Positions 8,003 to 62,198 of a DNA stretch of 64,000 bases are shown piece after piece. Each line of letters opens with the position of its first letter. The stretch's first letter is position 1. Source of the stretch: Actinomycetospora straminea (GTDB lineage Bacteria > Actinomycetota > Actinomycetes > Mycobacteriales > Pseudonocardiaceae); NCBI RefSeq assembly GCF_028737255.1, contig NZ_JAQZAN010000004.1, positions 62,001-126,000 on the forward strand. The letters run 5' to 3'. A program made the position numbers and the translations under genes. The notes below the pieces were generated by a model, which did not search any database, had not been told where the DNA came from, and saw nothing but the letters and a program-made list of their open reading frames with translations.

Positions 8003-8023
8003 CGGCCGGGTAGCCCGGCGGTC

Positions 8024-9480: not shown

Positions 9481-9556
9481 GCCCCCAGCGTGCCACCCCC
9501 GCGAAGTCCGATACCGTCGGTACCGCCATCTTCTGCGTGACCGGAGGAACACCGCC

Positions 9557-10921: not shown

Positions 10922-10932
10922 CGTGCCCGGTG

Positions 10933-10973
10933 ACTGGCTCGTATCGCTCGCTGGGCGAGCGATACGGGCCAGT
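10933..10973. terminator. 19-bp hairpin between convergent genes
   Basis: Arms 10933-10951 (ACTGGCTCGTATCGCTCGC) and 10955-10973 pair throughout with one G-T wobble around a TGG loop. It sits between the stops of the acyltransferase (+) and IcmF (-), so it probably terminates both. Confidence 0.7.
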
Positions 10974-10990
10974 AACCGTCGGGATCGCGG

Positions 10991-14239: not shown

Positions 14240-14458
14240 GCTTCCCTCGCAGTCCTGGGGGGCGCCTCGCCGGAGAATAGTAGGACGTCAAAGCGTTTTC
14301 CGGTGGGCGACGCGCATCACTCACGCAGCGAAGTCGGCGTTGGGCCGAACGAGTGGCTACTAGGGCGCGTCGGCGCCCGTAATGGTTACTGTGCGTCGAG
14401 AACGACAAGGAACCCGCCGTTCCCGCCCCACTCGCTCCTTCCCCCCGGGAGACCTGTT

Positions 14459-31886: not shown

Positions 31887-32678
31887 ATGAGCGATGCGCC
31901 CCTGCAGACGGTCACCAACGCTGCGCGCCTGCTCAAGGCGTTCCTCACCCGCGAGGAGTCGCTCGGGGTCTCCGAGCTCGCGCGGCGCCTGGGCCTGGGC
32001 AAGAGCGCGGTGCACCGGCTGCTCGTCACGCTGGCCGCGGAGGGGCTCGTCGAGCAGGACCCGCACACCGGCGGCTACCGCCTCGGGCTCGTCGTCTTCG
32101 AGCTCGGCGAGGCGGTGCGGGTGCACATGGACCTGCACGCCGCGGCCGGCTCCGTGCTCGCCCACCTCCGCGAGGAGACCGGCGAGTCCACGCAGGTCGG
32201 CATGCTCGACGGCCACGACGTCGTCTACGTCGACCGCCTCGAGTCGAGCCACGCGCTGCGGCTGTTCACCGAGACCGGCCGGCGCGTGCCGGTGCACTGC
32301 ACCAGCTCGGGCAAGGTGCTCATGGCCTTCGCGTCCGAGCCGGTCCGCGAGCGCTTCCTCGCGACCGCGACCCTGGCCCGCCACACCCCGCACACGATCA
32401 CCGACCCCGACGAGCTGCGCCGGGCGCTGGCCACCGTGCGCGCCCGGGGCTGGGCCGACGCCGTCGACGAGCGCGAGATCGGCGTGGCGTCCCTCGCGGC
32501 GCCCATCCGCGACGCGCGCGGCGTCGTCGTCGCCGCGATCGGCATCGGCGCGCCGGTCAGCCGGTTCCGCGCCATCCCGCGCAAGCGCCTGGCCCGCACG
32601 ATCGTCGAGGCCGGTGAGGCCGTGTCCCGCCGCCTCGGCTGGTCGGAAGAGGCACCCCTACTCGAGAAGGAGAGCTGA
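31887..32678 (+). CDS. IclR-family transcriptional regulator (B)
   Basis: 263 aa. N-terminal helix-turn-helix (about 5-65: VTNAARLLKAFL...LGVSELARRLGLGKSAVHRLLVTLA) and a full IclR ligand domain with SSGKVLMAF and VASLAAPIRDARG. It lies in the middle of the catabolic operon and next to the strongest regulon palindrome (31124-31142), so it is a leading candidate for the regulator that binds those sites. The next gene starts at the base after its stop codon. Confidence 0.9.
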   Translation: MSDAPLQTVTNAARLLKAFLTREESLGVSELARRLGLGKSAVHRLLVTLAAEGLVEQDPHTGGYRLGLVVFELGEAVRVHMDLHAAAGSVLAHLREETGESTQVGMLDGHDVVYVDRLESSHALRLFTETGRRVPVHCTSSGKVLMAFASEPVRERFLATATLARHTPHTITDPDELRRALATVRARGWADAVDEREIGVASLAAPIRDARGVVVAAIGIGAPVSRFRAIPRKRLARTIVEAGEAVSRRLGWSEEAPLLEKES

Positions 32679-33479
32679 GTGGCCGTCACCGACGCCCCGG
32701 TAGATCCGATCAAGGCGAAGGCGCGCGCACTCTTCGAGGCGCGGCGCACGCGGGTGCCGATCCCGCCGTTCACCGACAGCGAGCCCGACCTCGGGATGGC
32801 CGACGGCTACGCGATCCAGCAGGAGCTCGTGCCGCTGCTGCTCGCCGACGGCGACCGGGTCGTCGGGCACAAGGTGGGCGTCACGTCGGCGGCGATGCAG
32901 AAGATGATCGGCATCGACACCCCGGACTACGGCCCGACCCTGGCGTCGACGGTCTACCGCGACGGCGACGCGATCCCGCTCTCGCGGTTCATCCAGCCCA
33001 AGGTCGAGGCCGAGATCGTCTTCGTGCTCGGCGAACGGCTGCAGGGCCCGGGCATCCGGCCGACCGACGTCGCGCCCGCGATCGCCGGGGTCGCGGCGGC
33101 GATGGAGATCGTCGACTCGCGCATCGTCGACTGGCGGATCAAGCTCGCCGACACCGTCGCCGACATGGCGTCCAACGGTGCGGTCGCGATGTCCTCGCGG
33201 CTCGTGCCGCTCGCGGGGCTCGACACCCGGCTCATCGGGATGACGTTCACCCGCAACGGCGAGCTCGTCGACACCGGGGCGGGCGCCGCGGCGCTCGGGG
33301 ACCCGCTGGCGGTGGTGGCGTGGCTGGCGAACGTGCTCGGCGAGGCCGGCGTGGCGCTCGAGCCCGGCCACACGATCATGACCGGGGCGCTGCACGCGGC
33401 GGTCCCGATGGCCGCGGGCGACGTGTTCCGCGCGGAGTTCGACCGGCTGGGACCGGTGACGATCAGGGTGGTGGAGTGA
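32679..33479 (+). CDS. 2-keto-4-pentenoate hydratase family enzyme
   Basis: 266 aa, GTG start. The FAH/MhpD-fold family pattern is clear: GYAIQQELV, VVGHKVGVTS, IQPKVEAEIVFVLG with the metal-binding glutamates, and MEIVDSRIVDWRIKLADTVADMASNG. It adds water to 2-hydroxypenta-2,4-dienoate to give 4-hydroxy-2-oxovalerate, the substrate of the aldolase at 51950. It forms a pair with the related decarboxylase that follows; the two families are easily confused. Confidence 0.85.
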   Translation: MAVTDAPVDPIKAKARALFEARRTRVPIPPFTDSEPDLGMADGYAIQQELVPLLLADGDRVVGHKVGVTSAAMQKMIGIDTPDYGPTLASTVYRDGDAIPLSRFIQPKVEAEIVFVLGERLQGPGIRPTDVAPAIAGVAAAMEIVDSRIVDWRIKLADTVADMASNGAVAMSSRLVPLAGLDTRLIGMTFTRNGELVDTGAGAAALGDPLAVVAWLANVLGEAGVALEPGHTIMTGALHAAVPMAAGDVFRAEFDRLGPVTIRVVE

Positions 33480-33481
33480 CC

Positions 33482-34243
33482 ATGGCCGATGTCCACGAGC
33501 TGGCGTCCCGGCTGACCAAGGCCGTCACCGAGCGCACCGCGATCGACCCGCTCACCGACGACGTCCGCGACCTCGACCTCGAGACGGGCTACGCCGTCCA
33601 GCGCGTGCTGCGCGAGCAGGCCGGACCGCGGGCGGGCTGGAAGCTCGGGGTGACGTCGCGGGCGAAGCAGGCCCAGGTCGGGGTGTCCGACCCGGTCTTC
33701 GGTTTCCTGCCGGGTGCCGCGGCGCTCGACCTCGGCGCGCCCCTGCGCACCGGGGAGCTGATCCAGCCCCGCGCCGAGCCGGAGATCGTCTTCGTGCTGG
33801 GCCGGGACCTCGCCGGCGAGCACGTCACCGCGGCCGACGTGCTGTCGGCGACCTCCGGGCTCGCGGTGGGCATCGAGATCCTCGACTCCCGGTTCCGTGA
33901 CTACCGCTTCACCATGGCCGACGTCGTCGCCGACAACACCTCGGCGGCCCGCTTCGTCGTCGGCACGCCGGTGCCCGCGGCGGGCATCGACGTCCGCCTG
34001 GTCGGCGTGCTCCTGGAGAAGAACGGCCAGCTCGTCGCGACCGCGTCGGGCGCGGCGTCCCTGGGCCACCCGGCGGCGGCCGTGGCCTGGCTGGTGCGCC
34101 GCCTCGCCGCGTCGGGGGAGGGCCTCGCCGCCGGGGAGGTCGTCCTGTCCGGTGGCCTGACCGCCGCCACCCCCGTCGTCGCCGGCGACGTCGTGACCGT
34201 GACCATCGACCGCCTCGGGACGGTCGAGCTCGCCTGTACGTGA
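33482..34243 (+). CDS. 4-oxalocrotonate decarboxylase / hydratase family enzyme
   Basis: 253 aa. It shares the hydratase fold (GWKLGVTSRAKQ, IQPRAEPEIVFVLG, IEILDSRFRDYRFTMADVVADNTSAARFVVG). The NTSAARFV block resembles 4-oxalocrotonate (2-oxo-3-hexenedioate) decarboxylases that form a complex with the hydratase. With the tautomerase next door, this completes the dehydrogenative branch of meta-cleavage. Assignment as decarboxylase rather than second hydratase is likely but not certain. Confidence 0.8.
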   Translation: MADVHELASRLTKAVTERTAIDPLTDDVRDLDLETGYAVQRVLREQAGPRAGWKLGVTSRAKQAQVGVSDPVFGFLPGAAALDLGAPLRTGELIQPRAEPEIVFVLGRDLAGEHVTAADVLSATSGLAVGIEILDSRFRDYRFTMADVVADNTSAARFVVGTPVPAAGIDVRLVGVLLEKNGQLVATASGAASLGHPAAAVAWLVRRLAASGEGLAAGEVVLSGGLTAATPVVAGDVVTVTIDRLGTVELACT

Positions 34244-34280
34244 GTGGTTTTCCCGGCTGCAGCCGTGGATTTCGCTCACG
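34239..34280. promoter_or_regulatory. Symmetric nested palindrome between decarboxylase and tautomerase genes
   Basis: CGTGAG (34239-34244) and CTCACG (34275-34280) are placed exactly symmetrically around an inner palindrome GGCTGCAGCC (34255-34264). Several intervening positions also pair. It could be an operator, or an RNA hairpin that partly terminates or stabilises the operon transcript. Confidence 0.4.
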
Positions 34281-34298
34281 AGGACCGGAGGCAACGCC

Positions 34299-34502
34299 AT
34301 GCCGCTCGTGCAGATCACCCTCGCCCGGGGCCGCAGCCCCGAGCAGCTCGCCGCGCTGGGGGAGGAGGTCACCGCCGCGGTGACGCGCGCGGTGGGCGCC
34401 CCGGCCGAGAACGTCCGGGTCGTCGTCACCGAGTGCGAGCCGGAGCACTGGTTCGTGGGCGGTGAGTCGCTGGCGTCGCTGCGGGCCTCGGGCCGGCGGT
34501 GA
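34299..34502 (+). CDS. 4-oxalocrotonate tautomerase family protein
   Basis: 67 aa, the typical 4-OT length. Pro at position 2 becomes the N-terminal catalytic proline after Met removal; it starts MPLVQITLARGRS, and Arg11 matches the family. The enzyme ketonises 2-hydroxymuconate to 2-oxo-3-hexenedioate, feeding the decarboxylase encoded just upstream. GGAGG lies upstream of the ATG. A second, longer and frameshifted tautomerase lies at 51545. Confidence 0.85.
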   Translation: MPLVQITLARGRSPEQLAALGEEVTAAVTRAVGAPAENVRVVVTECEPEHWFVGGESLASLRASGRR

Positions 34503-45278: not shown

Positions 45279-45298
45279 GGCTGCCTCCGGCGCGGCGG

Positions 45299-47077: not shown

Positions 47078-47143
47078 CTGATCCTCCTCGACGATGAGCG
47101 CCCGATCACCGTTCATCGCCGCGCCGCTGTGAGGCAAGCAACA

Positions 47144-51086: not shown

Positions 51087-51433
51087 GGGGTGTCCTTCCG
51101 TGGATCGGTCTCCTCGAGTCGCCGGCCGAGGGCGTCGAGGCTGTCGGACCACAGCCGCCGGTAGGGCGCGAGCCAGGCGTCGAGGGCGACGAGCGGTGCG
51201 GGGTCGACCTCGTACACGCGCCGCTGGGCCTCGGGTCGCGCGCGCACCAGCCCCGCCTCGCGCAGCACCCGCAGGTGCTTCGACGTGCTGGGCTGGCTGA
51301 GCGCGAGCAGGTCGACGAGCTCACCGACCGCCCGGGGCCGCTCGCGCAGCAGCCCGAGCATGGCCCGGCGGTGCGGGTCGGCGAGCGCCGTCCACGTGCC
51401 GGCGTCGGGGGCGGTGGTCACGGCGTCGAGCAT
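51083..51433 (-). CDS. ArsR-family transcriptional regulator
   Basis: 116 aa. Winged helix (about 12-85: TWTALADPHRRAMLGLLRERPRAVGELVDLLALSQPSTSKHLRVLREAGLVRA). No cysteine metal site is visible, so it belongs to the non-metal ArsR group that pairs with SRPBCC proteins. Direct repeats ATGCCGCAT/ATGCCGCGC lie at the start codon and may be its operator. Confidence 0.85.
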   Translation of the reverse strand: MLDAVTTAPDAGTWTALADPHRRAMLGLLRERPRAVGELVDLLALSQPSTSKHLRVLREAGLVRARPEAQRRVYEVDPAPLVALDAWLAPYRRLWSDSLDALGRRLEETDPRKDTP

Positions 51434-51488
51434 GCCGCATCGGGAATATGCCGCGCAAGGCATAAGGCGGTCGCGTGGCGCCGCGCGC

Positions 51489-51545
51489 GTGATCAACGGG
51501 GAGTTCGCGCGCGTAGAGGCAGCGAACAGCACGTTCGCTGCGACC
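51489..51545. repeat. 57-bp dispersed repeat, copy 2
   Basis: Differs from copy 1 (2185-2241) at 4 of 57 positions. It contains the same GCAGCGAAC/GTTCGCTGC hairpin (loop AGCAC). It ends at the first base of the tautomerase stop codon. Same orientation relative to a minus-strand gene as copy 1. Confidence 0.7.
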
Positions 51546-51948
51546 TACCCCGAGGCCCGCGCCGCGATCTCGTCCCGGCGGGCCCCGGACGCCGGCACGC
51601 CGCCGATGGCCCAGTCGTCCGGCGGCACCTGGAGGACCCGCCCGCGCACCCGGGAGCGCTCGACCCCGAGGACGTCGACGATCAGGTCGGTGACCTCGGC
51701 GAGCAGCCGGTGACGCTGCTCGACCGGCCGGCCCTCGAGCACCACCGCGGTGAAGTACGGCGCCGGCGCGCTGCCGGTCTCGCCGCCGACCACGACCTGC
51801 TCGCGGGCGTGGAGCGTCGCGACGCCCGGATGCGCTCGAGCGGCGACCCGAGCACCTCGGCGTAGCGTCGGCTCGCCTCGCGCAGCAGGCGCGTCACGTC
51901 CGCGGGGTCGTGGTCGCCCTCGACGAGGTGGACCTCGAGGACGGGCAC
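51545..51948 (-). pseudogene. Two-part tautomerase family protein, apparently frameshifted
   Basis: The frame from GTG 51948 begins MPVLEVHLVEGDHDPADV with the catalytic Pro and reads through SPLERIR. From about 51825 the sense continues in another frame (VATLHAREQVVVGGETG...YFTAVVLEGRP...VRGRVLQVPPDDWAIGG). Restoring one base near 51825 would give a ~134-residue fused tautomerase. Either a real inactivating deletion or a sequencing error. Its start follows the aldolase stop by one base, so it belongs to that operon. Confidence 0.65.
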
Positions 51949-51949
51949 G

Positions 51950-52984
51950 TCAGCCCTGCTCCCGCTCGCGGGCCAGCTCGAGGGCGATGTCGATGATCAT
52001 GTCCTCCTGGCCGCCGACGAGGCCGAGCTCGCCGCAGCGGCGCAGGATGTCGGGCACCGGGACCTTGTAGCGCTCGCCGGCGTGCTCGGCGTGGAGCAGG
52101 AAGCTCGAGTAGACCCCGGCCCAGCCCTGGGTGATGGCGTTGCGGTCCATCTTCGGCCAGCGGTGCAGGTAGGGGCGCACGACGTCCTCGGCGGCGTCGA
52201 GCAGCGCGGTGACGTCGAGGCCGGTGGCGATGCCCATCCGGTCGAAGACGGCCGCGAGCACCTCGGTCGGCGAGTTGCCCGACCCGGCCCCGAGCGCGCA
52301 GAGCGAGCCGTCGATCTCCTTGACGCCGACCTCCGCGGCGATCACCGAGTTGGCGACGCCGAGCGAGAGGTTCTGGTGACCGTGGTAGCCGACCCACGCC
52401 TCGTCCCCGACCTCGGCGAGCAGCGCCTCGAACCGCGCGCGGGCGTCGTGCATGAGCAGCGCGCCCGCGGAGTCGGTGACGTACGGGCACTGGCAGCCCG
52501 CGTCGACCATGATCCGCGCCTGCTTCGCCAGGTCCTCGGGCGAGGTGCGGTGGGCCATCATGAGGAACCCGACGGTCTCCATGCCCAGGTCGCGGGCGAC
52601 CCCGAAGTGCTGCGGGGAGACGTCGGCCTCGGTGCAGTGGGTGGCGACGCGCACGACGTCGGCGCCGGCGTCGCGGGCGCGGCGCAGGTCGTCGACCGTC
52701 CCGATGCCGGGCACGAGCAGCACCGCGATCCGGGCCTGCGTCGCCTCCTCGCGGGCGGCGGCGATGAGCTCGAGCTCACTCGTGTGCGAGAAGCCGTAGT
52801 TGAAGCTGGAGCCGCCCAGCCCGTCGCCGTGGGTCACCTCGATGACCTCGACGCCGGCCCGGTCGAGCGCGCGCACCGTGTCGCGGACCTGCTCGACGGT
52901 GAACTGGTGGGCCTGCGCGTGGCTGCCGTCGCGCAGCGTCGTGTCGGTGATGCGGACGTCGTGACGAATCTCCGGCCGGCTCAC
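51950..52984 (-). CDS. dmpG: 4-hydroxy-2-oxovalerate aldolase
   Basis: 344 aa, GTG start overlapping the dehydrogenase stop by four bases. DmpG-type residues are in place: DTTLRDG with Arg18 and Asp19, His22, and metal ligands His201/His203 (GYHGHQN). It splits 4-hydroxy-2-oxoacids to pyruvate and an aldehyde (acetaldehyde or propanal), which is channelled to the partner dehydrogenase. The last steps of meta-cleavage meet here. Such volatile aldehydes are typical products that microcompartments contain. Confidence 0.93.
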
Positions 52985-53886
52985 GCGGCCACCTCCATCT
53001 CGGCCGCGACGAGCTCGCCGACCTGCGCGGCGGCCGCCGTCATGATGTCCAGGTTGCCGGCGTACTCGGGCAGGAAGTCGCCGTTGCCCTTGACCTCGAG
53101 GAACACCGCGACCCGGCCGCGCCCGCCCCACGTGTCGGTCGGCGGGTCGAACTGCGGCTCGGCGCGCAGCGTGTAGCCCGGGACGTACTGCTGGACCCGC
53201 TCGACCATCCGGTGCACCGAGGCGGCGACGGCGTCGTGGTCGGCGTCGGGCGGCAGCGAGCAGAACACCGTGTCCCGCATGATCATCGGCGGCTCGACGG
53301 GGTTGAGGATGATGATCGCCTTGCCGCGCTCGGCGCCGCCGACCTCCTCGACCGCCCGCGCGGTGGTCTGGGTGAACTCGTCGATGTTGGCCCGCGTGCC
53401 CGGCCCCGCCGACCGCGAGGCGGCCGATGCGACGATCTCGGCGTAGGCCACCGGCACCACCTGCGACACCGCCGCGACGATCGGGATCGTGGCCTGCCCG
53501 CCGCAGGTGATCATGTTGACGTTCGGGGCGTCGAGGTGCTCGGGCATGTTCACCGCCGGGCAGACCATGGGCCCGAGGTGCGCGGGCGTCAGGTCGATCG
53601 CGCGGATGCCCGCCTGCTCGTAGCGGGGCGCGTTGGCCGCGTGCGCCTTGGCCGACGTGGCCTCGAAGACGATCCGGGGCAGCGGGTCCTGGCGCAGCAG
53701 CCAGTCGACGCCCTCGGCCGACGCGGGCACGCCCATCGCCCGCGCCCGGTCCAGCCCCTCGGACTCGACCACCCCGACCATCGCGGTGACCTCGATCCGC
53801 GCGCTGCGCGCGAGCTTGGCCAGCAGGTCGGTGCCGATGTTGCCCGGCCCGACGATCGCGGCCGGGACCTTCGCAGGCGCAGTCAT
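52981..53886 (-). CDS. dmpF: Acetaldehyde dehydrogenase (acylating)
   Basis: 301 aa. Rossmann motif VGPGNIGTD (12-20), catalytic Cys128 in [11 protein letters not shown], and the NP(V)EPP(M)IMRDTVFC region. It converts acetaldehyde plus CoA and NAD+ to acetyl-CoA in complex with the aldolase. The C-terminus ends in a helical Ala/Glu stretch ([19 protein letters not shown]). It is not of the EutE/PduP type. Operator S6 is centred 52 bases upstream of the ATG and a -10-like CACGCT (53898-53893) suggests a leaderless mRNA. Confidence 0.93.
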
Positions 53887-53962: not shown

Positions 53963-54697
53963 TCAGGTCAGTTGTCGTGCGGCCCGGCCGGCGGCCTCGA
54001 CGACCTCCTCGGCGCAGCGCGCCAGCACCGGGCGGGTGAACAGCGAGGAGGGCCCGGCGACCGACAGCCCGCCGACCGGCCGGCCGTCGGCGTCGACCAC
54101 CGCCGCCGCGACGGAGGTCCGCCCCGCCTGGAAGGTCGAGGACACGACGTAGCCCGCGCGCCGCGCGGCGTCCAGCTCGTCGTGCAGCGCCGCGCGGTCG
54201 GGTGGGGCGACCTGCTCGTCGCGGCACAGGCGCCCGATGCGCTCGTCGACCTCCGCGGCCGGCAGCCGTGACAGCGCCGCCTTGCCGCACCCGCCGCGCC
54301 AGGCGGGCGCCCGCAGGCCGACCCGGTTGTCCATCGGTGCGCGCACCGGACCGGCCTCCCGGTGCAGGTAGACGGTCCAGCCCCCGACGAGCTGCGCGAC
54401 GTGGACCTCCTGCCCGGCCGCCCGGCGCAGCCCGCCGAGCCCGCCCTCGACGGCGGCGACGAGCCCGGTGCGTTCGATGATCTGGCCGGCCAGGCCCACG
54501 AGCAACGGACCGAGCCGCCAGCCGCGGCGGGGCACGGTCTCCAGCAGCCCCTCGGCGGCCAGCGTGCTGGCCAGGACGTGGACGGTGCTGCGCGGGATGC
54601 CGGTCCGCTCGGCGAGGGCGCGGGTGGACAGCACGACGGTGGTCGGGCCGAAGGCGCGCAGCAGCACCGCGGACTTGCTCACCGCCGCGACCGTCAC
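53963..54697 (-). CDS. IclR-family transcriptional regulator (D)
   Basis: 244 aa, GTG start. Helix-turn-helix (about 5-60: [10 protein letters not shown]...[28 protein letters not shown]) and a shorter IclR effector domain. Its promoter faces that of the BMC operon, with operator S7 and a pair of TGTCCAGC direct repeats in the 108-base gap. It is a candidate for local control of the microcompartment operon. CAGACT seven bases before the GTG may be its -10 box. Confidence 0.85.
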
Positions 54698-54805: not shown

Positions 54806-55786
54806 ATGGCTCGTGTGTTCCACGTCACCGCCGGCAGCGGCCGGTCGGCCGCGCGGCGGGCGCCGCGCCACGAGCCCGCCCCCGGCCCCGCCGCTGTGCC
54901 GGCGGGCCCGTCCGGCGGCGGCGGCATCGTCGCCGGCTACCTCGCCCCGCACCCGCCGCACCTCGTCTACGCCGAGAACCCCCCGCAGAACGAGCCGCGG
55001 TCGACGGGCGGCTGGGAGGTGCTGCGCTGGGGCTACGAGGAGCTGCGCCGCCGGCTGAAGGCCCACCGGCCCGACGTGCTCGTGGTGCACGCGCCGCACT
55101 GGATCACCATGGTCGGCCACCACGTCAACTGCGTGCCGAACCCGCGTGGCGTCTCCGTCGAGCCGATCTTCCCGCACCTGTTCCGCTACCACTACGACTT
55201 CCGCACCGACGTCGACCTCGCCGAGGCGATCGTCGACGAGGGCGCCCGCGCCGGGCTGGTCACCAGCGCCCTGCGTGAGGAGGGCGTCCGCGTCGACTAC
55301 GCGACGATCGGGGCGCTGCACCTGGCCAACCCCGACTGGGATCTGCCGGTCGTGTCGCTCTCGGCCAACAACAACCCGTACTACTACTCCGACGCCTCGC
55401 TGGCCGAGATGGAGACGCTCGGCGCCGCGACCCGCCGGGCGATCGAGCGCACCGGTCGGCGCGCGGTGCTGCTCGCGTCCAACTCGCTGTCCCACCTGCA
55501 CTGGGACACCGAGCCCGAGCTCCCCGAGGACATGGGCGTCGAGCGCCCCTTCGACCACGCCCAGTACGCGGGCGACATGGCGCTGCTGCAGACCATCCGC
55601 GAGGGCCCGACCTCCCGGCTGAAGGAGGCCGTGCCGGCGCACATCGAGGCCACGTCGTCCGAGACGAAGGCGGGCAGCCTCACCTGGCTGCTCGCCGCGA
55701 TGGGCTGGCCCGCGATCGCCGGCGACGTGCTCGCCTACGGCACGGTCATCGCGACGGGCAACGCGGTCGTGGAGTGGGTCCCGTGA
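54806..55786 (+). CDS. LigB-type extradiol dioxygenase, catalytic subunit (2-aminophenol 1,6-dioxygenase beta-like)
   Basis: 326 aa. From residue 41 it matches class III dioxygenases: YLAPHPPHLVYAENPPQNEP (Fe ligand region near His49/His52), VVHAPHWIT (second His), and SETKAG with the third ligand Glu, as in AmnB. It cleaves the ring of 2-aminophenol or a catechol. Residues 1-40 are an extra tail, a short basic start followed by a Pro/Ala/Gly linker (HEPAPGPAAVPAGPSGGGG), which could be a shell-targeting peptide. First gene of the BMC operon. Confidence 0.87.
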   Translation: MARVFHVTAGSGRSAARRAPRHEPAPGPAAVPAGPSGGGGIVAGYLAPHPPHLVYAENPPQNEPRSTGGWEVLRWGYEELRRRLKAHRPDVLVVHAPHWITMVGHHVNCVPNPRGVSVEPIFPHLFRYHYDFRTDVDLAEAIVDEGARAGLVTSALREEGVRVDYATIGALHLANPDWDLPVVSLSANNNPYYYSDASLAEMETLGAATRRAIERTGRRAVLLASNSLSHLHWDTEPELPEDMGVERPFDHAQYAGDMALLQTIREGPTSRLKEAVPAHIEATSSETKAGSLTWLLAAMGWPAIAGDVLAYGTVIATGNAVVEWVP

Positions 55787-56601
55787 CCCCGCCGGCAGCC
55801 CTGGTCCCGGCCATGCCCCACCTCCTCGCCGGCGACCCCGCCCCGAGCTGGGCCGAGCTCGCCGCCGCGACCCGCACCGTCGGCGACCGCCTGCGCGCCG
55901 CCCGCGTCGACACGGTGCTGCTGCTCTCGACCCAGTGGTTCACCGTGCTCGGCCACCAGGTGCAGTGCGACGACCGGCTGCGCGGGCGGCGCACCGACGA
56001 GAACTGGTACGCCTACGACTACGGCCACCTCGACCACGACCTGGCCGTCGACGTCGAGCTCGCCCACGCCTGGGCCGACGCGATCGACGCCGCCGGCATG
56101 CAGGCCCGACGCACCCGCTACGACGGCTTCCCGGTCGACACCGGCAGCGTCGTCGCCTCCCGCTTGCTGGACCCCGACGGTCGGGGCCGGTGGGCGCAGG
56201 TGTCGTGCAACCTCTACGCCGACCCGTCGGCGATGGCCGAGGTCGCCGCCGCCGGGGTGCGCGCCGCGTCCGGGCTGGGCCGCCGCCCCGGCGTGGTCGC
56301 GGTGAGCGGGCTGTCGTCCGGGCTCACGCCCCGCTGGATCCGCCCGTCGGAGGACCGGGTCGAGCCCGAGCACGACCGGTGGAACCGGAAGGTGCTCGAC
56401 GCGATCGCTGCGGGCGACCGCGACGCGGTGCTCGGGATGCGCGAGGAGTTCGCCGCCGCGGCGCAGGCGGACAGCCAGTTCCGGGCCGTCGCGTTCCTCG
56501 CCGGCGGCGGCGCGGTGGACCGACCGGGCGAGGTCCTCGCCTACGGGCCGGTGTGGGGCACGGGTGCGGCGGTCGTCTGGTGGAACGAACAGGAGACGTG
56601 A
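55783..56601 (+). CDS. LigB-like dioxygenase, non-catalytic alpha subunit (AmnA-like)
   Basis: 272 aa, GTG start overlapping the beta gene by four bases. It has the same overall fold (LVPAMPHLLAGD, TVLLLSTQWFTVLGHQVQC, WGTGAAVVWW), but the metal histidines of the beta subunit are replaced, as in the alpha subunit of 2-aminophenol 1,6-dioxygenase (271-276 aa). It probably forms a heterotetramer with the preceding protein. Its stop overlaps the start of the first shell protein gene (TGATG). Confidence 0.85.
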   Translation: MTPPAALVPAMPHLLAGDPAPSWAELAAATRTVGDRLRAARVDTVLLLSTQWFTVLGHQVQCDDRLRGRRTDENWYAYDYGHLDHDLAVDVELAHAWADAIDAAGMQARRTRYDGFPVDTGSVVASRLLDPDGRGRWAQVSCNLYADPSAMAEVAAAGVRAASGLGRRPGVVAVSGLSSGLTPRWIRPSEDRVEPEHDRWNRKVLDAIAAGDRDAVLGMREEFAAAAQADSQFRAVAFLAGGGAVDRPGEVLAYGPVWGTGAAVVWWNEQET

Positions 56602-56891
56602 TGGCACGGGCAGTGGGGTTCATCGAGGCCGAGGGGTTCGTGCCGGTCTTCGACGCGGTCGACGCGATGGTCAAGGCCACCGAGGTGGAGGTCCGCGGCG
56701 CGGTCCGCCTCGGCGGCGGGCTCGTCGCCGTCGCCGTGACCGGCGACCTCGCGACGGTCGAGGAGGCCGTCGAGGTCGGCGAGGAGGTGGCGCGGGCGGT
56801 GTCCGGCCGCGCCGTGAAGTCGATCGTGTTCGCGAGCCCGTGCGTCCCGGTCCAGGCGCTGGCCGGCGACCTGTCGATGGTGGGGAGCTGA
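56601..56891 (+). CDS. Bacterial microcompartment hexameric shell protein (BMC-H) 1
   Basis: 96 aa. BMC domain signature: AVGFIEAEGFVPVFDAVDAM and VKATEVEVRGAVRLGGGLVAV, then VEEAVEVGEEVARAV. Such proteins form flat hexamers that tile the facets of a protein shell and conduct small metabolites through a central pore; the pore loop here is probably LGGG. GGAG precedes the ATG. It is followed five bases later by a second, different BMC-H gene. Confidence 0.9.
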   Translation: MARAVGFIEAEGFVPVFDAVDAMVKATEVEVRGAVRLGGGLVAVAVTGDLATVEEAVEVGEEVARAVSGRAVKSIVFASPCVPVQALAGDLSMVGS

Positions 56892-56896
56892 CCGAC

Positions 56897-57226
56897 GTGG
56901 CCGAACGGGGTGCGGGAGCCATCGGGATCCTCGAGACGCGCGGCGTGGTCGCGCTGTCGGCGGGGATCGAGGCGATGATGAAGACCGCCGACGTCGAGAC
57001 CATCGCCGTCGAGCGGGTCAGCAGCGGCTATCTCGCCGCGGCCGTCCGCGGCTCGCTGGCCGCGGTCCGGCAGGCCGTCAACGCCGGGTCGGCGGCGGTC
57101 GAGCAGTACGGCGAGCTGCGCGCGGCGCAGGTCTACCCGAAGCCGCACGGTGTGTCGGTCGGCCTGCTGGAGAACGGCAGCTCCGAGCGGCTCGCGCGGG
57201 CGATCGCGTCCGGGGCGGAGCGGTGA
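56897..57226 (+). CDS. Bacterial microcompartment hexameric shell protein (BMC-H) 2
   Basis: 109 aa, GTG start. BMC signature: AIGILETRGVVALSAGIEAM and MKTADVETIAVERVSSGYLAA, VRQAVNAGSAAVEQYGELRA. The pore loop (VSSG) differs from that of BMC-H 1, suggesting a different selectivity. The C-terminal tail is ~25 residues longer. It overlaps the vertex protein gene by four bases. Confidence 0.92.
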   Translation: MAERGAGAIGILETRGVVALSAGIEAMMKTADVETIAVERVSSGYLAAAVRGSLAAVRQAVNAGSAAVEQYGELRAAQVYPKPHGVSVGLLENGSSERLARAIASGAER

Positions 57227-57468
57227 TCCTCGGCGAGGTCGTCGGGCGCGTCTGGTCCGAGCGCGAGGTCGACGGGCTCGGCGGGGCGCGGATGGTGGTG
57301 GTGCGCGAGCCCGGGTCCGGCGCGCAGCGGGTGGCGGTCGACCTGCTCGACGCCGGCACGGGCACGACCGTGCTCGTCGCCACCGACGAGGCCGCGGCGG
57401 CGGTGACCGGCCGCAGCTGCGTCGACGCGGCGGTGGTCGCCCTCGTCGCCGGGTGGGACGGCTCGTGA
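57223..57468 (+). CDS. Bacterial microcompartment pentameric vertex protein (BMC-P, EutN/CcmL family)
   Basis: 81 aa, GTG start. The beta-barrel family signature is clear: ILGEVVGRVWSE...GARMVVVRE, VAVDLLDAGTGTTVLVATDEAA and VDAAVVALVAGWD. Pentamers close the vertices of the icosahedral shell. With two BMC-H proteins this gives a minimal closed-shell set; no trimeric BMC-T gene is in the window. Coupled to the dikinase gene by GTGA. Confidence 0.9.
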   Translation: MILGEVVGRVWSEREVDGLGGARMVVVREPGSGAQRVAVDLLDAGTGTTVLVATDEAAAAVTGRSCVDAAVVALVAGWDGS

Positions 57469-58559
57469 GCGCCGGCTGGATCGTGGGCCTGGCCGACGCC
57501 GCGGCCGCGGACGTCGCCACCGTCGGCGGGAAGGGCGCCGGGCTGCACCGGCTCGTGGCCCTGGGCGCCCGGGTGCCGGCCGGGTTCGTCGTCACGACCG
57601 ACGCCTTCCGCGCGGCCCTCGACACCGTCGCCGCCCAGGTGGAGGCCCCTCTGCAGGCACTGGGCCCCGACGCCCCGATCGACGCCGTGGAGCGGGCGGC
57701 GGCACAGGCCCGGGCGCGCCTGCTGCGCACGGCCTCGGCCGGACCGGTCCTCGAGGAGGTGCGCGCGGCCTACGACGACCTCGCGGGCGGCATCGCGCGC
57801 GTCGCGGTGCGCTCGTCCGCGGTCGGCGAGGACGCCGCGGGCGCCTCGTTCGCCGGGGAGCACGACACGTTCCTCGAGATCCGGGGCCGCGACGCGGTCG
57901 CCGACGCCGTCTGCCGGTGCTGGGCGAGCCTCTACACGGCGCGGGCGGTGTCCTACCGCGAGCACGCCGGGGCCGGACCGGCCGGGGCGATGGCGGTCGT
58001 GGTCCAGGAGATGGTCCCGGCGCGCGCGGCCGGCGTGTTCATGACCCTCAACCCCGCGAACGGCGACCGCTCGACCGTGGTCTGCGAGGCGGTGTGGGGA
58101 CTGGGCGAGCCGCTGGTCTCCGGCGCCGTCACCCCCGACCGGTTCGTCGTCGACAAGGTCAGCGGCGAGGTCGTGCGCCGCGAGATCGCCGACAAGCCGC
58201 GCCAGTTGGTCCGCGGGGAGATGCCGGGGACGGCCGAGGTCGACGTCTCCGCCGAGCGGCGCGGCCGGCCGTGCCTCGACGACGCCGAGCTCGCCGAGCT
58301 GCTCGACCTGGCCCGCCGCGTCGAGCGCGACGCGGGTGTGCCGCAGGACGGCGAGTTCGCGGTGGCCGAGCCCGGTGGCCCGGCCCGCGTCCACCTGCTC
58401 CAGACCCGCCCGGAGACGGTCTGGAGCACGCGGGCCCCGCGGGCCGCGACCAATGGTTCCGGCGCACGCACCGCCCTGTCCGCAGTGCTCGCCACGCTCA
58501 CCCGCGGCGCGGCCGCGACCAGCACGACGCCCGAAGGGACGCCCGACCATGGCGGCTGA
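57465..58559 (+). CDS. Dikinase pair 2: ATP-binding (PEP-synthase N-domain) subunit with C-terminal tail
   Basis: 364 aa, GTG start overlapping the BMC-P gene. ATP-grasp domain: GGKGAGLHRL (21-30), VRSSAVGED (115-123), CEAVWGLGEPLVSG and terminal LLQTRPE (311-317). Beyond that a ~42-residue tail follows, with a linker (RAPRAATNGSG) and an amphipathic-looking helix (ARTALSAVLATLTRGAA, 334-350), resembling a microcompartment encapsulation peptide. It overlaps its partner gene by 11 bases. Confidence 0.83.
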   Translation: MSAGWIVGLADAAAADVATVGGKGAGLHRLVALGARVPAGFVVTTDAFRAALDTVAAQVEAPLQALGPDAPIDAVERAAAQARARLLRTASAGPVLEEVRAAYDDLAGGIARVAVRSSAVGEDAAGASFAGEHDTFLEIRGRDAVADAVCRCWASLYTARAVSYREHAGAGPAGAMAVVVQEMVPARAAGVFMTLNPANGDRSTVVCEAVWGLGEPLVSGAVTPDRFVVDKVSGEVVRREIADKPRQLVRGEMPGTAEVDVSAERRGRPCLDDAELAELLDLARRVERDAGVPQDGEFAVAEPGGPARVHLLQTRPETVWSTRAPRAATNGSGARTALSAVLATLTRGAAATSTTPEGTPDHGG

Positions 58560-60363
58560 CCGTTTCCCGAGCCCGTTCGACATCGAGACACCGCCCGGCG
58601 CGGAGGGCTGGGAGTCGATGTACGACTGGTACCACCTGTTCGGCTCGGAGCGCCGTGAGCTGGACGAAGGCCGGTTCTGGTTCGCCGACCGCCTGCACCA
58701 CCCCGACGTGCTCCACCCGTACGACGAGATCCAGTGCGAGTGCTGGTGGCAGGCCCTCGGCGCCTTCAACACCCGCATCTTCGCGATGCCACCGGCCTTC
58801 GGCGTCGACCAGCGGATCGTCAACGGCCGGCTCTACGTGACGCCGGTGGCCGCGCCGGCCGAGGACGTCGCGGCCCGTGCCGAGGAGTTCGGGAAGCGGG
58901 CCGGGCACTACTACGAGCGCTGGGACGCGATCTACACGGAGTGGAAGGAGAAGGTCACCGCGAAGCTCGAGGAGATCCGCGCGCTGCGCTTCGAGCCGCT
59001 GCCCGACCTGGAGCCCGAGTCCACGGTGTTCGACCACACCGGCCACTCGGCGGGGTTCCGGATGATCCGGGACTTCGACCGCCTCGTGCTGACGATGTAC
59101 GAGACCTACCAGTACCACTTCGAGCTGCTCAACATCGGCTACGCGGCGTACCTGACGTTCTTCGCGATGTGCCGCCAGGCGTTCCCGGACATCTCCGACC
59201 AGTCGATCTCGCGGATGGTCGGTGGCCTGCGGGTCGAGCTCTACCGGCCCGACGACGAGCTCAAGCGCCTCGCGAAGGAGGCCCAGCGTCTCGGGCTGGT
59301 CGAGCGCCTGTCCGGCACCGAGGACGCGGCGACGCTGTTCGCGGCGCTGCGGCAGGACGCGGCGGGCGCCGAGTGGGTCGCCGACTGGGAGCGCACCGCC
59401 GACCCGTGGTTCCTCATCAACACCGACCCCGGGCACCCCGGCGGCTACCACACCTACCCGACCTGGGCGGACCAGCCGGACATCCCGCTGGCGTCGGTGC
59501 GCGAGTACCTGCGCCGGCTCACCGACGGCGAGTCGATCGACCGCCCGACCGACGAGGTGCTCGCCGAGCGCGACCGGATCACCGCCGGCTACCGCGAGCT
59601 GCTCGCCGACGACGACCGCGCGACGTTCGACGACACCGTGGCGCTCGCCCGCCAGGTGTTCGCGTTCATCGAGGAGCACGTGCTCTACATCGAGCACTGG
59701 ATGTGGGCGACGTTCTGGGCCAAGTCCCACGAGCTCTCCCGCGCGCTGGCCGCGATGGGCGAGATCGACGAGCCCGAGGACATGTTCTTCCTGCGCCGCT
59801 ACGAGGTCGCCGAGGCGATCTACGACTGCGTCGCGGCGTGGTCGGTCGGCTCCCGCCCGCGCGGCGCGGACCACCTGCGCCCGCTCATCGCCCGCCGCCG
59901 CGAGATCTACACCGCGCTCCGGGCGTGGGAGCCGCCGCCGGCGCTCGGGCCGCCGCCGACCCAGATCGACGAGCCGTTCACGGTGATGCTGTGGGGGATC
60001 ACGACGGCGTCGGTGTCCGAGTGGCTGCGCGCCGACGGCGACGACGGCACCCTGCGCGGCACGGCCGGCTCGCCGGGCGTCGTCGAGGGGCCGGTGCGGG
60101 TGGTCACGCACCCGTCGGAGCTCCCGGACGTCCAGCCCGGCGACGTCCTGGTCTGCCCGGCCACGTCGCCCGCGTGGGCGCCGGTGTTCGCGCGGACCGC
60201 CGCCACGGTCTCCGACGTCGGCGGGATCATGAGCCACACCGCGATCGTGTGCCGGGAGTACGGCATGCCCGCGGTGGTCGGCACCGGCAACGCCGTCGCC
60301 ACCCTGCGCACCGGGCAGCGGGTGCGGGTGGACGGGGACACCGGCGTGGTGACCGTCCTGTGA
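58549..60363 (+). CDS. Dikinase pair 2: phosphohistidine (PEP-utilizing mobile domain) subunit
   Basis: 604 aa from ATG 58549. The helical substrate domain (1-~500) contains many aromatic residues (WESMYDWYHLF, CECWWQALGAFN, EHWMWATFW). The swivelling domain has TSPAWAPVF and SDVGGIMSHTAIVCREYGMPAV with catalytic His563. It is homologous in layout to the 45299 protein but clearly divergent. It likely phosphorylates an aromatic hydroxyl with the preceding subunit. Rifampin-phosphotransferase-like activity is the main alternative. Confidence 0.82.
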   Translation: MAADRFPSPFDIETPPGAEGWESMYDWYHLFGSERRELDEGRFWFADRLHHPDVLHPYDEIQCECWWQALGAFNTRIFAMPPAFGVDQRIVNGRLYVTPVAAPAEDVAARAEEFGKRAGHYYERWDAIYTEWKEKVTAKLEEIRALRFEPLPDLEPESTVFDHTGHSAGFRMIRDFDRLVLTMYETYQYHFELLNIGYAAYLTFFAMCRQAFPDISDQSISRMVGGLRVELYRPDDELKRLAKEAQRLGLVERLSGTEDAATLFAALRQDAAGAEWVADWERTADPWFLINTDPGHPGGYHTYPTWADQPDIPLASVREYLRRLTDGESIDRPTDEVLAERDRITAGYRELLADDDRATFDDTVALARQVFAFIEEHVLYIEHWMWATFWAKSHELSRALAAMGEIDEPEDMFFLRRYEVAEAIYDCVAAWSVGSRPRGADHLRPLIARRREIYTALRAWEPPPALGPPPTQIDEPFTVMLWGITTASVSEWLRADGDDGTLRGTAGSPGVVEGPVRVVTHPSELPDVQPGDVLVCPATSPAWAPVFARTAATVSDVGGIMSHTAIVCREYGMPAVVGTGNAVATLRTGQRVRVDGDTGVVTVL

Positions 60364-61082
60364 CGGTGGGACCGTCCTGCGCTCCCCGCCCCGCCGGGCG
60401 GGGAGCGTCGGAGTCCGCGCCCCCCGACGCGGTGCGGGCCGCCCGGCGCCGGGCGCTGCGCCGCACCCGCACCACCGGCGGCACGCTGCTGCTCGACATG
60501 GGCGGGGTGGTGATCCCGACGCTGTTCGAGTCGACGGCCGTGCCGGGGTTCCCGGCCGGGCCGACCGGCACCGACGAGGACTACCGGTCGGTCGAGCGGG
60601 GCGAGTCCCAGGAACGCGACTACTGGGCACGCCTCGTCGCGCGCCGGCCGGACATCGACATCGGCGCCCTGTGGCGCGAGTGCTCCTACGTCCGCGGCGA
60701 GGTGCTCGGGCTGGTCGAGCGGCTCGCGGGACGGGTGCGGGTGGTCGCGTTCACCAACGACATGGCGCACTGGTTCGGCGACGACTGGCCGGCGCGCTTC
60801 CCGGCGGTGGCGCGGTTCGACGGGGTGCTCGAGGCCGCGAAGCTGGGCGTGCTCAAGCCCGACCCCGCCGCCTTCCGGGCCGCCGCCGACGCGCTGGCCG
60901 AGGACCCCGGGCGCTGCCTGTTCGTCGACGACCTCGCCGCCAACCTCGACGGGGCCCGGGCCGCCGGGATGGCCGCCGAGCTGTTCGAGGTCACCGACCC
61001 GGCCGGCTCGGTCGCCCGGGTCGCGCGCGCCCTGGGGCTCCCGCCCGACGAGCCCCGCCGGCGACGGGTGTGGTCGCCGTGA
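60360..61082 (+). CDS. HAD-superfamily hydrolase with basic N-terminal extension
   Basis: 240 aa, GTG start overlapping the dikinase stop. HAD motifs: nucleophile Asp46 in LLLDMGGVV, motif II TND, motif III Lys in LGVLKPDP, motif IV FVDDLAANLDGA. The second motif-I Asp is Gly, as in some HAD-IA branches. Residues 1-38 are an Arg-rich extension (PPDAVRAARRRALRRTRT). In context it may dephosphorylate a product of the dikinase. Dehalogenase-type chemistry is the alternative. Confidence 0.78.
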   Translation: MTVGPSCAPRPAGRGASESAPPDAVRAARRRALRRTRTTGGTLLLDMGGVVIPTLFESTAVPGFPAGPTGTDEDYRSVERGESQERDYWARLVARRPDIDIGALWRECSYVRGEVLGLVERLAGRVRVVAFTNDMAHWFGDDWPARFPAVARFDGVLEAAKLGVLKPDPAAFRAAADALAEDPGRCLFVDDLAANLDGARAAGMAAELFEVTDPAGSVARVARALGLPPDEPRRRRVWSP

Positions 61083-61525
61083 CGGCTCCCGAGGAGCGGC
61101 TGTCCGCGCTCGGCCTCGAGCTGCCGGCCTTGCGCCGTCCCGCCGGGCACTACCGCGGCTGGACGACCGCCGGCGACGTCCTCTACCTGTCCGGCCAGGG
61201 CGCCGACGGGCACACGGGACGCGTGGGGGCGGACCTCACCGTCGCCGCCGGCTACGCCGCGGCCCGCGCCTGCACGCTCAACCTCCTGGCCCAGGCCCGC
61301 GACGCCGTCGGCTCGCTCGACCGCGTCGCGCAGGTCCTCGTGCTGCGGGGCTACGTCGCGTGCACCGACGACTTCACCGACCAGCCCGGCGTGGTCGACG
61401 GGGCCTCGGACCTCCTCGTCGAGGTCTTCGGCGAGCGCGGGGAGCACGCCCGCACCGCGATCGGGGTCCGGGCGCTGCCGCGGGGGTTCGCCGTCGAGCT
61501 GGACGCGGTGCTGCGTGTGCGCTGA
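61079..61525 (+). CDS. RidA/YjgF family protein (possible 2-aminomuconate deaminase)
   Basis: 148 aa, GTG start overlapping the HAD gene. Family blocks: RLSALGLELPALRRPAGHY, VLYLSGQGA, CTLNLLAQARDAVGSLDRVAQVLVLRGYVACTDDFTDQPGVVDGASDLLVEVFGE split across the chain, and HARTAIGVRALPRG with the conserved Arg. RidA proteins hydrolyse imines/enamines; one branch deaminates 2-aminomuconate in aminophenol degradation, which fits the neighbouring AmnA/AmnB-like subunits. Confidence 0.82.
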   Translation: MTAPEERLSALGLELPALRRPAGHYRGWTTAGDVLYLSGQGADGHTGRVGADLTVAAGYAAARACTLNLLAQARDAVGSLDRVAQVLVLRGYVACTDDFTDQPGVVDGASDLLVEVFGERGEHARTAIGVRALPRGFAVELDAVLRVR

Positions 61526-62198
61526 GCGCGTGGCCTACGGGGACGACCCCGCGCAGTTCGTCGACCGGTACCCCGGCAGCGGGGCCGGCACGGTGGTGCT
61601 GCTGCACGGCGGGTTCTGGCGGGCCCGCGTCGGGCTCGACCACATCGCCCCCGTGGCCGCGGACCTGCACGCCCGCGGGCACGCGATCGTCAACGTCGAG
61701 TACCGGCGGGTGGGCCAGGCGCCGTGGCCCGCGACGCTCGACGACGTCGAGGCCGCGCTGCGCCTGGTGGGGGAGCCGGCCGTGCTCGTGGGCCACTCGG
61801 CGGGCGGGCACCTCGCGGCGTGGGTGGCGTCGCGGGTCCCGGCGGCCGGCGTGGTGTCGCTGGCCGGGGTGCTGACCCTCGCCGACGGTGCGCGCGAGGG
61901 CATCGGGAACGGCGCCGTCCGGGACCTCGTCGGCGGGCTGCCCGACGAGGTGCCCGAGCGCTACGCCGCCGCCGACCCGGCCGCGCTGCTGCCCCTGGGC
62001 GTGCCGCTTCGCGCGGTGCACGCGCGCGACGACGACCGCGTGCCGTTCCGGGTCAGCGAGCACTACGTCGCGGCCGCCCGGGCCGCCGGCGACGACGCGG
62101 CGCTCGTCGAGGTCCCGGGCGACCACTTCACCCTCGTCGACCCGCACCACCTCACGTGGCCGACCGTGTACGGACAGATCACGGATCTGCTCGCCTAG
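61515..62198 (+). CDS. Alpha/beta hydrolase (kynurenine-formamidase-like)
   Basis: 227 aa from GTG 61515; GTG 61530 is an equally possible start that avoids overlap with RidA. The oxyanion motif HGGFWR, nucleophile GHSAGGH and catalytic Asp (HARDDDRVP) and His (PGDHFTLVD) match bacterial arylformamidase/BD-FAE esterases. It could hydrolyse an N-formyl aromatic amine or an ester entering the pathway, which would link to the formyltransferase at 48912; this is inference. Last gene of the BMC operon. Confidence 0.78.
   Translation: MCAERVAYGDDPAQFVDRYPGSGAGTVVLLHGGFWRARVGLDHIAPVAADLHARGHAIVNVEYRRVGQAPWPATLDDVEAALRLVGEPAVLVGHSAGGHLAAWVASRVPAAGVVSLAGVLTLADGAREGIGNGAVRDLVGGLPDEVPERYAAADPAALLPLGVPLRAVHARDDDRVPFRVSEHYVAAARAAGDDAALVEVPGDHFTLVDPHHLTWPTVYGQITDLLA

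Follow-up and report, generated by a model that had tools for sequence, protein, structure and literature searches.

The ARO microcompartment was named by Sutter et al. 2021 (PMC8217296), and the structure of its dioxygenase from Micromonospora rosaria (PDB 7TXY) was reported by Doron et al. 2023, who proposed that 2-aminophenol or catechol is cleaved inside the shell (PMC10470539). The M. rosaria enzyme yields muconic semialdehyde in vitro, and 2-aminophenol is toxic to this bacterium above 100 uM. According to the same paper, the precursor of the pathway is unknown and the locus contains no upper-pathway enzymes, HyuB excepted as a possible candidate. An aldehyde dehydrogenase is said in the published description to be present in all ARO loci. 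We analyzed a 64,000-nucleotide stretch of the Actinomycetospora straminea genome (contig NZ_JAQZAN010000004.1, positions 62,001 to 126,000; hereafter the window) that contains ten forward-strand genes (54806-62198) encoding a predicted ARO dioxygenase and shell proteins together with a split ATP dikinase and a HAD hydrolase. Sequence comparisons indicate that about half of the ARO loci sampled share this conserved dikinase-HAD module, which the main texts on ARO do not discuss. Co-occurrence links the module to shells, as does a kinase clade found in compartment loci only.

Characterized relatives of the dikinase phosphorylate phenols, HpeHI yielding mainly AMP, and HpeH, CreH, and PpsA are approximately 45% identical to one another (PMC12167813, PMC9618137). 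The HpeHI system of Rhodococcus rhodochrous GD02 resembles the window locus in having a two-component ATP dikinase, there acting on phenols, with a catalytic His motif and a phosphatase gene, but differs in that no shell has been reported and a biotin carboxylase acts between the kinase and the phosphatase steps (PMC12167813, PMC9618137). HpeD of this system is distantly NagD-like. The CreHI p-cresol system is comparable as an aerobic actinobacterial two-component phenol kinase but differs in that cre-type clusters, as typed by their neighbors, contain a P450 system and an HD-domain protein and in that its kinases form a separate clade. PpsAB, which is found with phenylphosphate carboxylase, is of the same two-component kinase family; it differs in lying in a carboxylase cluster (Azoarcus sp. 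KH32C) with no shell genes in the stretch examined and in falling outside the ARO kinase clade.

Comparison with these systems indicates that the window locus belongs with the ARO class. A LigB-type α/β dioxygenase of the ARO kind sits upstream of the shell genes (LigB PF02900, 83.8 and 28.1 bits in the two genes; cut-off 26.3). The best PDB match of the β subunit was 7txy_B, 2-aminophenol 1,6-dioxygenase β (E 1.6e-153), with 513.7 bits versus 374.9 for the best non-compartment enzyme (3vsg_B). An in-frame ATG at 54806 gives a β subunit that includes the published N-terminal extension of 30-35 residues. The corresponding start pattern, (M/V)-x-x-(V/I)-F, was found in 23 of 27 β-subunit rows; two of the other four are at contig edges and two (G604, G607) have no visible start in the stretch examined. 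The shell set of two BMC-H proteins, with PKPH in the second only, and one BMC-P agrees with the published description, and the first BMC-H is 75% identical to its counterpart in the M. rosaria locus (L111). An IclR-type regulator adjoins the locus, as in the ARO class. The closest named relatives of the locus are in Actinomycetospora, the dioxygenase being 92% identical to that of A. lutea, the top value in the tree alignment. A first-pass annotation, made from the sequence of the window alone, had mentioned the ARO class and named failure of the shell genes against BMC profiles as evidence to the contrary. The class assignment was right and the shell genes pass these profiles (BMC PF00936, 63.5 and 67.3 bits, cut-off 24.5; EutN_CcmL PF03319, 54.9 bits, cut-off 25). 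Since the class is already published and partly characterized, an aromatic microcompartment is not in itself new.

The M. rosaria system shares with the window locus two BMC-H and one BMC-P, the LigB-type α/β 2-aminophenol dioxygenase with its N-terminal β extension, an IclR regulator, and meta-cleavage lower genes (PMC10470539, PMC8217296). It differs in that its locus contains HyuAB, AmnD, and a dedicated aldehyde dehydrogenase and in that its genome has no homologue of the dikinase large subunit (E<=1e-40) or of the HAD hydrolase (E<=1e-6). Because the window locus lacks the aldehyde dehydrogenase that the published description assigns to every ARO locus, we call it a variant and, with moderate confidence, assign it to a dikinase type of the ARO microcompartment.

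We examined how regularly the dikinase accompanies the shell in 36 ARO loci, comprising 32 from a scan of a GTDB genome collection, three further loci, and the window. The scan used two peptide patterns from the dioxygenase alignment and may therefore have missed distant or unusual ARO loci. The dikinase large subunit was found in 19 of the 36 and HyuAB in 13, and no locus contained both. The four loci with neither were L094, L110, L124, and L115. In the genome of L094 the dikinase lies beside shell genes on a separate contig (L189) and is thus a twentieth case across a contig break; L110 is a 5.6-kb contig and L124 matched no shell gene. The same pattern was seen in 390 genomes of the host family, with the three best dikinase candidates scored per genome. 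Nineteen contained the ARO dioxygenase (E below 1e-140), G405 having only a distant match at 32% identity, and exactly these 19 contained the ARO BMC-H (≥67% identity). The dikinase large subunit (≥67% identity) was found in 18 of them, on a separate contig in G425, and was missing from G496. In the other 371 genomes a single dikinase exceeded 51% identity (G710, 63%). In a class-wide sample of 394 genomes an ARO-grade dioxygenase was found in the window genome only, other matches having E values of 1e-12 or weaker. The first-pass annotation had proposed a synteny survey to see whether the shell genes travel without the other genes; in this family the ARO BMC-H was always accompanied by the dioxygenase and, in 18 of 19 genomes, by the dikinase. 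The recurrence of dioxygenase and shell genes in 19 genomes of one family, 18 of them with the dikinase, indicates that the locus is not a chance arrangement.

The loci without the dikinase suggest that HyuAB takes the place of the kinase-phosphatase module in Micromonospora and some other genera. All ten Micromonospora and Verrucosispora ARO genomes lacked a dikinase large-subunit homologue at E<=1e-40. Three other genomes of the HyuAB type (Streptomyces, Nocardioides, and Microtetraspora), as well as Amycolatopsis jejuensis, have distant dikinases elsewhere (42-46% identity); that of A. jejuensis belongs to a cre-type cluster (L186). Pfam searches confirmed HyuA and HyuB in all three loci tested (L111, L116, L120), although the L116 proteins have diverged (39 and 33%). 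When the dikinase and HyuAB labels are mapped on a tree of the dioxygenases from 35 loci (L124 left out), three changes are required, at least two of them forced by well-supported branches, which argues that the two modules replace each other. Two changes are a lower bound rather than a history because some deep branches are weak. As an idea only, HyuAB might turn benzoxazolinone into 2-aminophenol. The dikinase of Pseudonocardia spinosispora (L101) is found beyond the divergent regulator, so its retention is not simply a matter of operon position. It is also retained in L118, a 7.1-kb contig of a metagenome-assembled genome labeled Solirubrobacter.

The sizes of the two dikinase subunits fit those of two-component phenolic dikinases of about 40 and 70 kDa, and Pfam searches detected PPDK_N (PF01326, 285 bits) and PEP-utilizers (PF00391, 81.9 bits) domains in the pair. 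With the longer start, the large subunit matched NF006153 at 747.9 bits (cut-off 578). Its catalytic motif SDVGGIMSH (S555-H563) fits T/SxxGGxxxH with catalytic His563. S555, D556, V557, G558, G559, M561, S562, and H563 were invariant in all nine ARO kinases aligned and I560 was variable; the Ser before the catalytic His is the residue reported for CreH and PpsA. A 40-row kinase tree grouped the G710 kinase with the 19 ARO kinases in one clade (100/100, stem 0.73) distinct from Cre-, Hpe-, Pps-, xanthine-dehydrogenase-linked, and VOC-linked kinases, these labels coming from neighboring genes rather than enzyme data. The ARO group was limited to kinases with more than 450 residues and 60% identity, which left out the partial L119 kinase. 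The clade of 20 is firm, but its place among other kinases is unsure because some long branches meet. Within the clade, the G710 kinase may nest among the ARO kinases (with L118, 95/77). Plasmid kinases typed by their neighbors as Cre, Pps, or Hpe share 40-45% identity with the window large subunit, and by analogy with characterized relatives the window enzyme probably phosphorylates a phenol. The window genome also has an Hpe-like cluster (L140, G000:C35:1834-8807) with a two-component kinase, biotin carboxylase parts, and a HAD; since this lies on another contig, the ARO kinase is not simply the Hpe kinase of this genome. The first-pass annotation had described the enzymes as phenylphosphate-synthase-like in a combination not known to be characterized. 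The combination is indeed absent from the ARO main texts, but the enzymes are as much kin of CreHI and HpeHI as of phenylphosphate synthase.

Some other identities and features were considered and set aside. Phosphoenolpyruvate (PEP) synthase was not favored for the large subunit, whose PDB matches cover only the last ~105 residues and which groups with phenol kinases. The C-terminal helix of the small subunit was ruled out as an encapsulation peptide because Cre-, Pps-, Hpe-, and Thermomicrobium-type subunits have a similar tail. An AlphaFold model of the large subunit had a mean pLDDT of 58.4 and was set aside.

The HAD hydrolase was found in 18 of the 19 dikinase-bearing ARO loci, the exception (L119) ending inside the kinase. 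The HAD-IA motif residues D46, T132, K166, D190, and D191 were invariant in all 13 compartment-linked sequences, and the fold matched 3cnh_B (Z 17.4, root-mean-square deviation 4.1, 160 aligned). The structure alignment leaves out L178. All 13 also have an Arg-run extension before the HAD domain (R29 and R34 invariant), as does L178. In the 13 loci examined, the start codon covering the extension overlaps the stop of the preceding gene or is within ~15 bases of it. The gene calls for two non-compartment HADs near dikinases (L190, L210) start only a few residues ahead of the first motif. Across eight searched genomes, HADs with at least 55% identity were all compartment-linked and the remainder were at 45% or less. 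AlphaFold placed a helix at residues 22-35, directly before the domain, with modest confidence. It is a fair guess that the extension targets the HAD hydrolase to the shell since it is conserved in compartment HADs and absent in the two non-compartment relatives. We do not claim a classical encapsulation peptide; the extension is strongly basic and has a hydrophobic moment of 0.08-0.26 in eight of the nine segments computed and of 0.49 in the window. Separately, a histidine-phosphatase-family gene follows the HAD gene in Kibdelosporangium and Pseudonocardia acaciae loci (L107:16048-16767, L114:16166-16816, elsewhere); a homologue occurs near 14 of the 36 ARO loci at a loose threshold and may be a second phosphatase.

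From gene content, co-occurrence, clade structure, and intact catalytic residues, all directly observed, we propose with moderate confidence that a phenolic precursor is phosphorylated, later dephosphorylated, and then cleaved by the dioxygenase in the shell. The two-gene dikinase would use ATP to phosphorylate the hydroxyl of the precursor, releasing AMP and phosphate, and the HAD enzyme would later remove the phosphate from the aryl phosphate. The freed 2-aminophenol- or catechol-like ring would be opened inside the shell by the dioxygenase pair, and RidA, the tautomerase, or both may hand the product on to the lower pathway of DmpG and DmpF. In this reading the kinase and the phosphatase form an upper module. 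We favor a location of the kinase in the cytosol and the phosphatase in the lumen.

Several points weigh against this proposal, in which the substrate, the order of the steps, and the set of proteins inside the shell are inferred. The HAD hydrolase is proposed to be a phosphatase from its family, fold, and residues, yet haloacid dehalogenases are also among its fold matches, and motif I keeps the nucleophile Asp46 but has Gly48 where a second Asp is usual. Locus L115 (Amycolatopsis jejuensis, G496) is an ARO locus with neither an ARO-type dikinase nor HyuAB and carries an FMO-like monooxygenase in their place. No ARO aldehyde dehydrogenase was found at 22-64 kb of the window or in the 20 kb on either side of it, the closest copies in the genome (45-47% identical) being on other contigs. 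This gene was present in eight of 19 dikinase loci versus all 13 HyuAB loci; among the dikinase loci without it, L096, L118, and L119 are short contigs. Finally, adding a phosphate and then removing it is a futile cycle if no other step intervenes. In the Cre system the aryl phosphate is the substrate of an oxygenase. A carboxylase takes this role in the Hpe and Pps systems (PMC12167813, PMC9618137). No aryl-phosphate-acting gene was found among the neighbors recurring across genera, most single neighbors carrying no annotation.

In one alternative, phosphate is a handle, as in the Cre system, that lets an oxygenase encoded elsewhere oxidize the ring or side chain before the HAD enzyme frees 2-aminophenol or catechol, the shell serving ring cleavage only. 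We consider this possible but clearly less probable than the main proposal. Rhodococcus plasmid clusters that we take to be cre-type, from their neighbors, pair the kinase with a P450, ferredoxin, reductase, and HD-domain protein. In two neighborhoods without shells (L190, L210), VOC extradiol dioxygenases and a Rieske oxygenase accompany a dikinase and a HAD, and the Hpe pathway has an enzyme acting on the phosphorylated compound before dephosphorylation (PMC12167813, PMC9618137). However, no oxygenase occurs among the neighbor families that recur across genera, where single neighbors are mostly unannotated; P450 was found in three genomes and Rieske oxygenase in four, all of the genus of the window. 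Nor does this alternative predict what our sample shows, that ARO kinases occur almost solely in microcompartment loci.

In another alternative, which the toxicity of 2-aminophenol to M. rosaria above 100 uM (PMC10470539) would fit but which we consider unlikely, 2-aminophenol or catechol is itself the substrate of the dikinase. Phosphorylation would then serve storage or detoxification by curbing autoxidation and efflux, and the HAD enzyme would release the compound on demand. The authors of the HpeHI work suggest that phosphorylation keeps diffusible phenols in the cell (PMC12167813, PMC9618137), but such storage would spend ATP without a pathway step. Least probable, in our judgment, is an ordinary ARO microcompartment whose dikinase and HAD share its regulation but serve a different pathway. 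Aromatic clusters are often found side by side, and the same genome has other dikinases, including the Hpe-like cluster. Against this stand the presence of the dikinase in 18 of 19 versus one of 371 genomes, which are related to one another, the single kinase clade found only in microcompartment loci, and its retention in L101 despite changed gene order and in the L118 contig.

The module also raises the idea that entry into the shell is controlled by phosphorylation. The convex face of a shell hexamer looks inward. Doron et al. modeled the H_lipstickred hexamer as strongly negative on the convex face and positive on the concave face (PMC10470539). If the faces are so oriented, the shell would be positive outside, which would favor anionic aryl phosphates, and negative inside, which would favor the Arg-rich helix, with the reservation that the model is of the M. 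rosaria protein and M. rosaria lacks the kinase-HAD module. We tentatively picture a phosphate-gated organelle in which phenols charged by a cytosolic kinase of the microcompartment-only clade pass into the shell in anionic form, and the HAD enzyme, held to the shell by its Arg-rich N-terminal helix, unmasks them there. This would confine toxic free aminophenol and semialdehyde to the lumen, and the module would serve at least one dioxygenase-less microcompartment type (L178) as well. We regard this fuller scheme as speculative.

The words kinase, phosphatase, haloacid, and phosphoenolpyruvate are absent from the main text of Doron et al. (PMC10470539), as is dikinase from that of Sutter et al. 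(PMC8217296). Search listings of the open-license PMC literature gave no paper tying a phenol-phosphorylating enzyme to a microcompartment and none combining "phenylphosphate synthase" with "bacterial microcompartment"; by the same listings a long review (PMC12857756) contains both "dikinase" and "bacterial microcompartment". The kinase-hydrolase module may be the missing first step of the ARO pathway. Its presence in 19 of 36 loci offers a way to the precursor, as the target of the kinase would reveal the substrate.

Further genes bear on the type of ring that is cleaved. The presence of a tautomerase marks an ARO locus as catechol-type under the published rule (Doron et al., PMC10470539). 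We found a tautomerase in eight of the 36 loci, all from Actinomycetospora. A RidA of the window type was present in 14 loci and AmnD (2-aminomuconate deaminase) in 16, never together. Neither was found in L094, L109, L110, and L119, where contigs end, or in L114 and L124; the other contig of the L094 genome holds the RidA. RidA and AmnD are 24% identical but have in common an aligned arginine near the C-terminus. RidA is a likely stand-in for AmnD, which would make the window a 2-aminophenol-type locus despite its tautomerase. The first-pass annotation had the shell enclose part of a meta-cleavage pathway ending in an aldehyde, pointing to the aldolase and acylating dehydrogenase. The aldehyde of importance for the shell is most likely the dioxygenase product, muconic semialdehyde, rather than acetaldehyde from DmpFG. 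Both lower-pathway genes match NCBIfam models above cut-off; DmpF or DmpG was found in 23 of the 36 loci, so the adjacency is common but not core.

The kinase-HAD pair also occurs inside a different microcompartment locus, L178 (G710:C506:3000-22999, genes 7454-14976), with three BMC-H, one BMC-P, an ornithine-cyclodeaminase-family gene, a pyridoxal 5'-phosphate enzyme, DUF1611, and an enolase-superfamily gene. No LigB match was found in L178, which supports a tie of the pair to shells rather than to the dioxygenase alone. This is a single locus from a fragmented genome with 9% estimated contamination, and it is possibly a new compartment type. By eye, genes in L212, downstream of L178, resemble those for kynureninase and tryptophan 2,3-dioxygenase. 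In several genomes of Actinomycetospora and relatives (G414:C22, G417:C4, G419:C12, G423:C62, G430:C29, others) there is another BMC-H pair, ~40-45% identical to the ARO BMC-H, with its genes ~8 kb apart on opposite strands, apparently in another compartment locus.

Features of the ARO locus and its surroundings in the window. Start codons in the operon are our choice.
Feature	Position	Strand	Match or remark
ARO dioxygenase β subunit (AmnB/LigB type), 326 aa	54806..55786	+	PF02900 (shorter start); N-terminal extension starting MARVFH
ARO dioxygenase α subunit, 272 aa	55783..56601	+	PF02900
BMC-H shell protein 1, 96 aa, without PKPH motif, H_lipstickred counterpart	56601..56891	+	PF00936
BMC-H shell protein 2, 109 aa, with PKPH, H_cerulean counterpart	56897..57226	+	PF00936
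BMC-P shell vertex protein, 81 aa	57223..57468	+	PF03319
Dikinase ATP-grasp component (DIK_N; HpeI/CreI/PpsB type), 364 aa	57465..58559	+	PF01326
Dikinase substrate-binding and swivel component (DIK_C; HpeH/CreH/PpsA type), 604 aa	58549..60363	+	NF006153 (longer start)
HAD-IA hydrolase, proposed aryl-phosphate phosphatase, 240 aa, Arg-rich N-terminal extension	60360..61082	+	PF00702 (shorter start)
RidA/YjgF family protein, candidate enamine (2-aminomuconate) deaminase	61070..61525	+	PF14588
α/β hydrolase, accessory	61530..62198	+	PF20434
IclR-type regulator, divergent	53963..54697	-	PcaR/PcaU- and BhcR-like matches, below cut-off
Acetaldehyde dehydrogenase (acylating), DmpF	52981..53886	-	TIGR03215, 438.6 bits (cut-off 282.25)
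4-hydroxy-2-oxovalerate aldolase, DmpG	51950..52984	-	TIGR03217, 493.9 bits (cut-off 286)
4-oxalocrotonate tautomerase family protein	51545..51793	-	PRK01964, 46.5 bits, below cut-off of 86
Possible satellite set: IclR, two FAA-hydrolase-fold proteins, second tautomerase	31887..34502	+	PF01614, PF01557 twice, PF01361

The ten genes form one tight operon in which neighbors overlap or nearly touch (start and preceding stop at 55783/55786, 56601/56601, 57223/57226, 57465/57468, 58549/58559, and 60360/60363). Pfam and these coordinates agree with the operon and gene families first listed, including HAD (PF00702, 38.9 bits, cut-off 26.4) and YjgF (PF14588, 87.8 bits), although the last gene, labeled formamidase-like, is a generic α/β hydrolase (PF20434, 53.3 bits, cut-off 26.8) whose NCBIfam matches are all below cut-off. 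This hydrolase was found in eight of the 36 ARO loci (E<=1e-20) and in contig L189, all Actinomycetospora, with a partial 50% match in L119 elsewhere. The true start of RidA may sit slightly downstream of 61070. The satellite set is possibly linked to the shell locus, and its FAA-hydrolase-fold proteins are hydratase/decarboxylase candidates.

A second dikinase pair in the window (44121-47116) was left out of the system. On the tree it is a distant paralogue. Its counterparts in L210 (72% identical) adjoin a VOC dioxygenase gene, a Rieske oxygenase is nearby, and the stretch contains no shell gene. This split dikinase belongs to a second aromatic cluster without shell genes (22727-47116) that contains two VOC extradiol dioxygenases, a histidine phosphatase, and a Rieske ferredoxin and oxygenase; similar sets that include a dikinase and a HAD occur in L190 and L210. 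A further clade of two-component dikinases from the same family (L179-L185, L187, L188) has recurring neighbor sizes, and its label "xanthine-dehydrogenase-linked" comes from the annotated Thermomicrobium locus L136 and gene sizes rather than a family search. Between the ArsR and tautomerase genes (51433-51545), relatives have by eye either a P450-like/AraC-like or a FAD-oxidase-like/LuxR-like pair, and the window has neither. The FMO-like, perhaps Baeyer-Villiger-type, monooxygenase of L115 (2039-3955) has a homologue in L116 (14453-16210; Streptomyces sp. SID8352) and is possibly a third upper module.

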